This document shows positions 296-2,946 of a DNA stretch of 64,000 bases, piece by piece. The stretch's first letter is position 1. Every line of letters starts with the position of its first letter. The stretch covers positions 1-64,000 of the forward strand of contig CAJQPA010000028.1 in NCBI GenBank assembly GCA_905480145.1. Direction: 5' to 3'. Made by a program: the position numbers and the translations under genes. Source of the stretch: an uncultured Flavobacteriales bacterium. Its GTDB lineage: Bacteria; Bacteroidota; Bacteroidia; Flavobacteriales_D; Crocinitomicaceae. A model generated the notes under the pieces. It was not told the DNA's origin, ran no database searches, and saw nothing but the letters and a program-made list of their open reading frames with translations.

Positions 296-784
296 TTAAA
301 GAAAAGTCTCGAACCGCTCAAAATGGCAAGTATACCCATTTGGATATCGCGTCAAATAATTTTGATGTTCAGGTTCTGCCGGCCAAAATTTAACAAAAGG
401 CTCAATGCTCGTAACAACTTTATCTTGCCATTTACCTGACTGATCGACAATATCAATAATCTCTTGTGCAGACTGCTTTTCTATTTGATTTTGAAAAAAG
501 ATTACAGACCTATAAGAAGAACCGTGATCATTTCCTTGCCTGTTTAATGTCGTTGGATTGTGTATTCTAAAAAAATAGTCTAAAATCTCCTCAAAAGAAG
601 TTATTTCTGGGTCATAAGTTAACTCAATGCCTTCAGCGTGTCCTTCATGATTATGGTAGGTTGGAAATTCGGTTTTTCCACCCATATATCCAACTTCAGA
701 ATCAATAATTCCTTTACGAAGGCGAAATAAATCTTCTATACCCCAAAAACATCCACCTGCGAAATACGCCTTACTATAAGTCAT
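296..784 (-). CDS. msrA: Peptide-methionine (S)-S-oxide reductase MsrA
   Basis: Reduces the S-epimer of methionine sulfoxide in proteins and free methionine, a cytoplasmic repair reaction driven by thioredoxin. The GGCFWG motif with catalytic Cys12 sits right after the start, followed by the family stretches YHNHEGHAEG and RSVIFF; a further Cys lies in the C-terminal YTCHFERF segment and could serve as resolving residue. At 162 residues it is a normal single-domain MsrA with no MsrB fusion. It is the last gene of the run GNAT, zinc-ribbon, SelO, MsrA, 41 bases after selO, which suits a role in oxidative damage repair. Confidence 0.95.
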   Translation of the reverse strand: MTYSKAYFAGGCFWGIEDLFRLRKGIIDSEVGYMGGKTEFPTYHNHEGHAEGIELTYDPEITSFEEILDYFFRIHNPTTLNRQGNDHGSSYRSVIFFQNQIEKQSAQEIIDIVDQSGKWQDKVVTSIEPFVKFWPAEPEHQNYLTRYPNGYTCHFERFETFL

Positions 785-825
785 TCTAATACTCTTTAAA
801 TCTAATGCGAAATTAACAAAATCAT

Positions 826-2385
826 CTATGAACTACAAGACAACATGGAACATCCAACCTTGTTTTTAGCCCAATCAGGTCTTTTGACATACCACTTCTC
901 CATTTCTGGCTGCTCATCGTATGGTTTTAGCAGAAGTTGATACAATTCATCAACAAGCCGATTGTCTCCAGATTCTGCAGCATCAATGGCTAACTGTGCC
1001 ATGTAATTTCTCAAAACATACTTCGGGTTCACCAGTTTCATTTTCAAATTTAATTCGGTTGCTAAAATATTTTCCTTAGCTAAATGCGAAGTATATTCTT
1101 CGTACCAATTTCTCCAATCGTTGATAGAAATATCATTGGACTTATAACTGGAATTAACCAACGAAGAATTAAATCCTTCCCAGTTTTCTCTATTCTCAGA
1201 AGAGGAAATAGATCTATAAAATAAAGTCATATCAAGCTCATCCCTTTCCATCAAGTCTTCTAGTCTATCCAAAAAAGTTTCTGAAATTTCAATATTATAC
1301 AACCCTAGCTTGGACAACTTCATTTTGTGAAGTTCTGCTAAAAATTCATTACCATAATTCTTAAGTACCTTTTGAAGTGGATCAACTTCTAACACTAAAG
1401 GATAAAGAGCATTGGCTAATTTATTTAAATTCCATAGAGAGATTTGCGCTTGATTTCCGAAACGATATCTTCGATTATTTCTATCAGTGGTATTGGGTGT
1501 CCAATTTCTATCAAAATTTTCCAACCATCCATAAGGCCCGTAATCAATAGTTAAACCCAATATGGACATATTATCTGTGTTCATTACTCCGTGAACGAAG
1601 CCAACTCTTTGCCAATGAATAACCATTTCTCGCGTTTTTTCAGCAACAGTTTTGAAAAACTGAATATAGACTTCCTTTGATGGAGCTCCCAATTCAGGGT
1701 AGTGATTTACAATGGTATAATCCACTAATTGCTTAAGTACTTTTGAATCATTTCTAGCCGCCAATAATTCAAAACTTCCAAATCGAACGAAGCTCGGCGC
1801 CATTCGGCAAACGACAGCTCCTAATTCATCTTTTTTATTTCCGTCATATAAAATATCTCGTGTAACAAAATCTCCAGTTTTAACCAAAGAAAGAGCCCTT
1901 GTAGAAGGAATACCTAGATGATGCATTGCTTCACTGCATAAATACTCTCTAATTGAAGACCTTAATACAGCGAAACCATCAGCACCTCTTGAGTATGGTG
2001 TCGGTCCAGAACCTTTCAACTGTAATTTCCAATTTATATTTTCAATATCTAATTCAGCAATATTGATAGCACGGCCATCACCCAATTGTCCTGCCCAATT
2101 ACCAAATTGATGGCCTCCATAACACATTGCGTAGGGCTCAAACCCATTAAAAGTTTTAGCGCCGCTCACAATTTTTAAAAATTCTACCGTATCAACAACT
2201 GATAAATTCAATTCTTGGAGTAGTGAGTGTGAAACATGAACTATTTCTGGGTTTCTCGGGACTTTAGTCTCAACCAAAGAAAAACATGCACCTATGACTT
2301 GTCTAGAAAAGTTGTTTTCTTCTGAATCCTTTGGAAGTTCGGCTGAAAACTTTTTACGATATGGTAGGCTCAGTATATCTATCAT
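826..2385 (-). CDS. selO: Protein adenylyltransferase SelO (YdiU/UPF0061)
   Basis: SelO is a pseudokinase-fold enzyme that transfers AMP from ATP to hydroxyl side chains of proteins; in E. coli it links redox state to glutathionylation. Visible hallmarks are [18 protein letters not shown], the LQLKGSG lysine, the PYSRGADG loop, and the NTDN plus IDYGPYG pair whose two aspartates lie ten residues apart, as in characterised SelO (D252 and D262). The C-terminus ends SCSS, the bacterial counterpart of the selenocysteine tail. Length (519) fits the family. It starts 3 bases after the zinc-ribbon gene and precedes msrA, so co-transcription is likely. Confidence 0.95.
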   Translation of the reverse strand: [519 protein letters not shown]

Positions 2386-2388
2386 TTA

Positions 2389-2658
2389 TTAGATTTCCTT
2401 GTTACAAGTAACACAAATATATTGGTTTTCATGTTTATGAGTCGTCTTAATATGTTTATCTACAATTTTACTAATGAAATTATCGTATCGATCTCCACCC
2501 GGAGTTAAGTGTTTATCTTTTATGATATCATAATACTCACCATCCCATTCATTATAACCCCAGCAGTTCGGACACATTCCATCTGGGGCAATTGAAACAT
2601 CACTCCCTTTTTCTTTATTCTTAAAATATTTCTTAATGCTCTCTATTAATTGACTCAT
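2389..2658 (-). CDS. Small zinc-ribbon-like protein
   Basis: An 89-residue cytoplasmic protein of unknown function. It has two CxxC knuckles, CPNC near residue 29 and CVTC near residue 83, spaced about 50 residues apart with acidic and aromatic residues between them (YNEWDGEYYD), the pattern of a zinc ribbon or treble clef. No enzyme motif is visible. It lies 9 bases after the GNAT gene and 3 bases before selO on the same strand, which suggests a shared transcript and possibly a job with SelO as adaptor or substrate; that link is inference only. Confidence 0.75.
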   Translation of the reverse strand: MSQLIESIKKYFKNKEKGSDVSIAPDGMCPNCWGYNEWDGEYYDIIKDKHLTPGGDRYDNFISKIVDKHIKTTHKHENQYICVTCNKEI

Positions 2659-2667
2659 GATATGAAC

Positions 2668-2946
2668 TTATTTAATTATTGTTTTCCACTTAGACGAACT
2701 CAATGCAATTTTCTTAATATAAGAGCATACTGCATTTGCTATAAAACCTTCTTTTGTTAACAAAGCAAAAGTTTCTTCTACAAGTTTTTGACCTACTCCC
2801 TGTCCTCTTAACTGACTTGGAACGTAACTATAAGTCAAATACATTTCGTTACTTCTTAACTCATACGAGACATAAGCCTCAATACCATCATCAACCATTA
2901 AAACAAATCTGTGCTCTGCTTTATCATGAATTAATTTATTAGTCAT
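2668..2946 (-). CDS. Small GNAT-family N-acetyltransferase (YjdJ-like)
   Basis: A 92-residue single-domain protein of the short GCN5-related acetyltransferase group (Acetyltransf_CG type). The acetyl-CoA binding stretch is PSQLRGQGVGQKLVEETF, preceded by the beta strand MYLTYSYV, with the typical VCSYI late motif. Substrate is unknown for the family. It appears to be the first gene of the minus-strand run leading into the zinc-ribbon, selO and msrA genes; the about 90-base gap to the divergent membrane protein gene should hold its promoter. Confidence 0.85.
   Translation of the reverse strand: MTNKLIHDKAEHRFVLMVDDGIEAYVSYELRSNEMYLTYSYVPSQLRGQGVGQKLVEETFALLTKEGFIANAVCSYIKKIALSSSKWKTIIK

Follow-up and report, generated by a model that had tools for sequence, protein, structure and literature searches.

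Gene organization at the contig end

The window analyzed here, a stretch of 64,000 nucleotides from an uncultured Flavobacteriales bacterium, begins at base 1 of its contig and carries close to this end four co-oriented genes on the minus strand. In reading order, they encode a small GNAT acetyltransferase of the Acetyltransf_CG family (positions 2668–2946, 92 aa), a CPxCWG family protein with two CxxC knuckles (2389–2658, 89 aa), the protein adenylyltransferase SelO, or YdiU (826–2385, 519 aa), and the peptide-methionine (S)-S-oxide reductase MsrA (296–784, 162 aa). The intergenic gaps of 9, 3, and 41 bases agree to the base with those given in the original prediction, and this spacing suggests that the four genes are cotranscribed. 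Another minus-strand open frame (1–186), located 109 bp downstream from msrA, runs off the contig end; it is a candidate fifth gene, and the operon, whose downstream end lies outside the view, may continue past the contig end. At higher coordinates than the GNAT gene there are a membrane-like 135-residue protein with a DUF3792 match under threshold (3035–3442), and a divergent 698-residue protein with PD40 repeats above the cut-off and TPR matches below it (3532–5628).

The identities proposed for GNAT, SelO, and MsrA were borne out by Pfam matches above the cut-offs. The GNAT protein matched Acetyltransf_CG (PF14542; E 4.3e-15, 56.1 bits vs. a cut-off of 30), with which it shares length and domain, while its operon context is different. 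SelO matched PF02696 over positions 19–463 of the 466-position profile (399 bits, E 3.6e-119) and the NCBIfam YdiU subfamily NF000658 (522 bits, above the cut-off of 431), and it scored below the cut-offs of both equivalog models, NF045949 and NF040880. A 20-residue stretch of the protein, assigned to the pseudokinase active-site region, aligned with a 20-residue stretch of the solved SelO 6eac. The C-terminus of SelO reads CSMLSCSS, with a CX4C cysteine spacing that is also found in L074, L075, L077–L079, L050, and L053; the published C-terminal motif is Cxx[CU], which does not occur in every SelO (Dudkiewicz et al. 2012, PMC3281104). MsrA matched PMSR (PF01625, E 6e-55) and TIGR00401, both above cut-off, and contains the catalytic GCFWG. 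It matched the nearest solved chains, 4gwb (MsrA 3) and 1nwa, over nearly the full length and without any notable difference, and the alignment with 4gwb retained both the GGCFWG motif and the C-terminal NGYTCHF.

A scan with the sigma-70 consensus, which may not suit these organisms, found 16 promoter-like sites as compared with a mean of 12.5 in shuffled sequences. On the operon's strand, promoter-like sites were present inside the operon about as frequently as in the shuffles, which leaves room for separate promoters, and the same scan detected no terminator-like site on that strand. The organisms of this group use promoters other than those of the sigma-70 type.

The 89-residue protein belongs to a cysteine-rich family

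The product of the second gene had been described as an uncharacterized protein with two CxxC knuckles, and the searches agreed with this description, because no Pfam, NCBIfam, or PDB match rose above threshold, while the knuckles are formed by C29–C32 and C82–C85. The sole Pfam match was Ribosomal_L44 (14.2 bits vs. a cut-off of 25, E 0.056), there was no NCBIfam match, and no cut-off of a known zinc-ribbon family was reached in either collection. Against the sequences in the PDB, the single-protein search returned nothing up to E 10, while the best profile match had an E-value of 0.95. On the strength of these results the assignment of the protein to a known family was rejected. Two CxxC knuckles are a feature which it has in common with small zinc-ribbon or zinc-knuckle proteins such as PhnA/YjdM and L44; unlike these and others, however, the window protein falls below the Pfam cut-offs and has 49 residues between its knuckles.

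The data showed that CPxCWG proteins form a true family with the motif APEGxCPxCWG...CxxC, which was recovered from a further 28 whole genomes of the phylum and from one contig of an Aureispira MAG (L012), a Saprospirales-type member of Bacteroidota. Because the 89-residue frame is conserved in frame across many genomes, it is not a chance ORF. The single-protein search matched 9 of 150 genomes of the taxonomic family, and the profile search, for which the counts are lower bounds, matched 18 of 299 genomes of the order, 12 of 395 of the class, and 5 of 395 of the phylum, with the window's own genome included each time. These samples overlap, and when pooled they amount to 32 places, spread over 29 genomes with the window's own among them, plus L012. 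The distribution across genomes is patchy, and some of the places are damaged, with one internal stop each in G571 and G138, three in G236, and a chimera in G658. The chimeric ORF at L053:8897–9238 joins the start of an MsrA to the rear part of a CPxCWG protein, the first knuckle of which is damaged, and looks like a deletion fusion.

The family consensus consists of a short N-terminal helix, the sequence APEGxCPxCWGxqEY, a middle stretch, and a short hairpin leading into the CxxC. Among 30 aligned members, C82 and C85 were retained in all 30, C29 in 29, and C32 in 28, and the adjoining W33 and G34 in 29 and 28, respectively. The missing first-knuckle cysteines were confined to the broken copy L099, plus C32 in the L053 chimera. 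CPxC is a common zinc-knuckle pattern, and in the weak Pfam matches of 19 members zinc-finger or zinc-ribbon names accounted for 17 of the 25 families listed; the best among the matches listed was zf-Di19 (E 0.00037). A structure model of the 89-residue protein, built from the window protein and L012 only, was of middling confidence (mean pLDDT 79.9, pTM 0.67) and placed in part two helices in the stretch that separates the knuckles. When the model was compared with PDB folds, 26 matches were returned up to E 10, none of them with E <= 0.001 and the best with E 1.3.

A mobile or viral origin of the family was rejected, because no relative was confirmed either in plasmids or in viral contigs, where five stretches fit the pattern. 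The strings CPNCWG, CPACWG, CPVCWG, and CAICWG were absent from the literature searched, and no description of a CPxCWG family was found with these or with searches on Msr, zinc ribbons, and Bacteroidetes operons.

Methionine sulfoxide reductase genes recur beside the CPxCWG gene

The positions of msr genes were determined from Pfam MsrA and MsrB matches in all 29 genomes with a CPxCWG gene. An MsrA or MsrB gene was located less than 2 kb from the CPxCWG gene at 11 of the 32 places, as compared with 0.16 expected (P about 5e-18; the P values for Msr are only indicative, because the model treats the places as independent and uniformly distributed and ignores kinship, for which genera were counted), and less than 1 kb away at 10 of the 32 places vs. 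0.09 expected. All 16 Msr matches at distances up to 3 kb were on the strand of the CPxCWG gene, and the Msr-positive places spanned eight genera. The idea of this association arose on the first 11 places, four of which were positive, and among the places found later, Msr was less than 2 kb away in seven of 21 (G306, G282, G547, G612, G559, G658, and G571). There was no Msr within 2 kb at 21 of the 32 places, where some contigs end early.

When a wider set of seed genes (Msr, Trx, OsmC, AhpD, SelO, and GNAT) was counted at 33 loci, 27 matches fell in the first 1 kb (64.5 kb of sequence; 41.9 per 100 kb), one of them being the L053 chimera itself, vs. one match in 201.7 kb at 4–8 kb from the CPxCWG gene; this count is partly circular, with inflated numbers for Trx, OsmC, and AhpD, because these three seeds were drawn from the same loci. 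None of the seed matches was on the opposite strand. A seed gene was present within 2 kb at 17 of the 33 loci, while 16, including L012 from Aureispira, were without any (some contigs end early). The same-strand recurrence of Trx, OsmC, and AhpD-type genes beside CPxCWG is softer evidence than that of Msr.

The arrangement of these clusters varies among relatives, in which gene names without Pfam support were read by eye. The nearest relative, L038 (69% identity), has the order MsrB, MsrA, AhpC/TSA-domain thioredoxin-like protein, GNAT, CPxCWG, MsrA, and repeats the gene order of the window (GNAT, CPxCWG, MsrA) except for SelO, which in this genome is on another contig. A GNAT homolog directly precedes CPxCWG in L038; in L040 it lies about 2.2 kb upstream, and the order there is GNAT, MsrA, redox genes, MsrA, CPxCWG, MsrB. 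Locus L039 has CPxCWG followed by MsrA; L050 contains an AraC-type regulator, MsrA, a thioredoxin-like protein, SelO, MsrA, MsrB, CPxCWG, and an aminotransferase; and L053 contains MsrB, SelO, an FMN-reductase-like protein, MsrA, and the chimera. Other neighbors are seen in L041 (regulator, AhpD-type, Trx, CPxCWG), L097 (regulator, Trx, CPxCWG, FMN reductase), and L044, where OsmC adjoins CPxCWG. Loci L045 and L096, which have no seed gene within 2 kb, have hemerythrin-type neighbors, identified as ScdA/hemerythrin by Pfam in L096 and by eye in L045.

SelO is an occasional member of the clusters

The original prediction had proposed that the small protein could be a substrate, an activator, or a redox switch of SelO, and that its rarity next to selO in relatives would speak against this. 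SelO was found in 24 of 80 genomes of the taxonomic family, at 25 loci, and the CPxCWG gene was beside it at one of these 25, the window itself, and at none of the other 24 (flanks of up to 1.5 kb, with several loci cut by contig ends), which means that the protein is rarely a neighbor of selO. Msr was near two of the 25 SelO loci (window and L072; flanks up to 1.5 kb, several of them short). Starting from the CPxCWG gene, SelO was less than 2.5 kb away at three of the 32 places (window, G612, and G658), which exceeds the 0.04 expected (P about 1e-5) but compares with 11 of 32 for Msr within 2 kb. A SelO match was present in 21 of the 29 CPxCWG genomes, and in nine of these 21 Msr was within 2.5 kb of SelO, always co-oriented. 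Because all three places with SelO and CPxCWG also carry msr genes, SelO seems to be a facultative component of an Msr cluster, and from the SelO-centered loci and the SelO positions in the 29 genomes a SelO-specific partnership of CPxCWG was rejected as the main reading.

The linkage of SelO to methionine sulfoxide reductases, as in the window, was described previously, where windows of 22 kb showed a significant link for msrB and a trend for msrA (Dudkiewicz et al. 2012, PMC3281104), and SelO neighborhoods have been the subject of a later survey (PMC10364804). A term search of the text of the former paper did not find the four-gene order or the CPxCWG protein. The MsrA-SelO part of the operon is already known, while what is new is the CPxCWG protein, together with the finding that it is linked to Msr more often. 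As for the physiological role of SelO, E. coli SelO is reported in a review to inhibit glutaredoxin 1 by AMPylation at Tyr13, near the glutathione-binding cysteine, and E. coli and yeast without SelO to lose viability under oxidative insult (PMC12409994). On the other hand, H2O2 induces ydiU in Salmonella, but the mutant is reported as more resistant (PMC13355359), and the sign of the SelO effect under oxidative stress differs between these reports.

Possible role of the CPxCWG protein

These data suggest, with a probability that we put at about 0.6, that the four genes make up a single operon that serves the repair of, or the response to, oxidation of thiols and methionine, in which the CPxCWG protein is an accessory of Msr and thiol-stress functions. 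The operon is so one version of a modular repair cluster for thiol and methionine oxidation in which SelO is optional. The redox-responsive protein-modification module that had been proposed is supported in part, as regards the tight co-oriented group and its redox theme, but not as regards a SelO-centered role of the small protein. In such an operon, MsrA would repair methionine sulfoxide, SelO, the activity of which is predicted, would AMPylate redox enzymes under stress, and the GNAT protein would be an accessory. The CPxCWG protein would belong to the Msr/thiol-stress clusters, and would meet SelO only because SelO also joins such clusters. A single zinc ion is most probably bound by the four cysteines of CPxCWG, in a zinc knuckle into which helices are inserted; if this site were oxidized or attacked by electrophiles, the binding of a partner could change, and in this way the protein may assist repair of the Msr/Trx type as a small accessory or adaptor in thiol stress. 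Because the cysteines are invariant and because of its neighbors, a thiol-stress role is the best guess for this protein, and that of a zinc-knuckle accessory appears the likeliest, with zinc binding, redox sensing, and a partner all putative; the protein may sense, dock, or only have a stabilizing effect.

A more ambitious version, which we regard as possible but doubtful, is that CPxCWG represents a new component devoted to methionine-sulfoxide repair, common to a modular type of Bacteroidota operon, and that as a zinc-thiolate redox sensor or an Msr-docking protein it couples oxidation of the zinc site to the activity of Msr, Trx, and OsmC, and also of SelO where this occurs. It is rather unlikely that the protein instead donates electrons to MsrA and MsrB, or recycles them, with its CxxC pairs as dithiols. 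Such a role could explain why it directly adjoins different MsrA types and MsrB, and why Trx is its neighbor where Msr is absent (L041 and L097), but the four cysteines are retained together as in a metal site, the Pfam matches listed include no thioredoxin or glutaredoxin family, no fold match was significant, and several of these clusters already contain thioredoxin-type genes. The zinc-ribbon-like cysteines and the weak similarity to ribosomal L44/eL42 could also point to a DNA- or RNA-binding regulator of the operon; this is improbable, given that neither similarity reaches the threshold (E 0.056 and 1.4) and that AraC-type regulators are already found near several clusters.

The gap of 3 bases to selO, the excess of SelO at three of the 32 places, and the AMPylation of glutaredoxin 1 by E. 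coli SelO (PMC12409994), which makes a CxxC protein a thinkable target, would fit a dedicated SelO partner. Against this, 29 of the 32 places are without SelO within 2.5 kb, even though most of the genomes encode it, none of the other 24 SelO loci of the taxonomic family has the CPxCWG gene, and Msr is present in every SelO case, all of which makes this reading very improbable. The smallest chance is given to an incidental grouping of unrelated functions by compact packing in one small genome: the assembly of 2.44 Mb, the rarity of the SelO linkage, and the 21 places without Msr within 2 kb would be consistent with it, but it does not explain the 11 places with Msr vs. 0.16 expected, their spread over eight genera, or the fact that every Msr neighbor is on the same strand. 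Conservation of Msr and SelO extends to humans. CPxCWG, which recurs on the same strand next to MsrA or MsrB, offers a candidate, open to test, for an accessory that methionine repair has been lacking and a lead for proteins without a family name; if it were a passive zinc protein, the gain would be a modest one in annotation.

Other genes recurring in the clusters

A class I/II aminotransferase is the second recurrent neighbor, as it adjoins CPxCWG in one genus (L049, L051, and L100) and in L050 (by Pfam for the L050 copy and by eye for the others). A fusion of an alpha/beta hydrolase with OsmC recurs at L040:5608–6807, L053:9205–10431, and in L054, with Pfam support for the L040 copy. Directly upstream of CPxCWG and beside the hemerythrin-type genes, L045:8435–8743 and L096:8669–9007 encode a protein of 102–112 residues, of which the L045 copy had no Pfam match.

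Related AraC/HTH_18 regulators are present in or near the loci of eight relatives, some of them 8 kb away (L041:7166–8011, L041:13248–14087, L042:7795–8628, L097:4710–5531, L050:13553–14500, L038:5655–6485, L038:18027–18869, L040:54–878, L048:7715–8599, and L104:9255–10106), a count made without a background control. As AraC-type genes are common, their presence in these loci is no proof of a link. When the window's own genome (~90% complete) was searched with the AraC-type regulator of one relative, there was no match, which by itself proves nothing. In the five regulator copies whose front halves were inspected (L041, L042, L097, L048, and L104), a cysteine recurs within an E(V/I)xC(K/N)G motif, and this residue could be a redox sensor.
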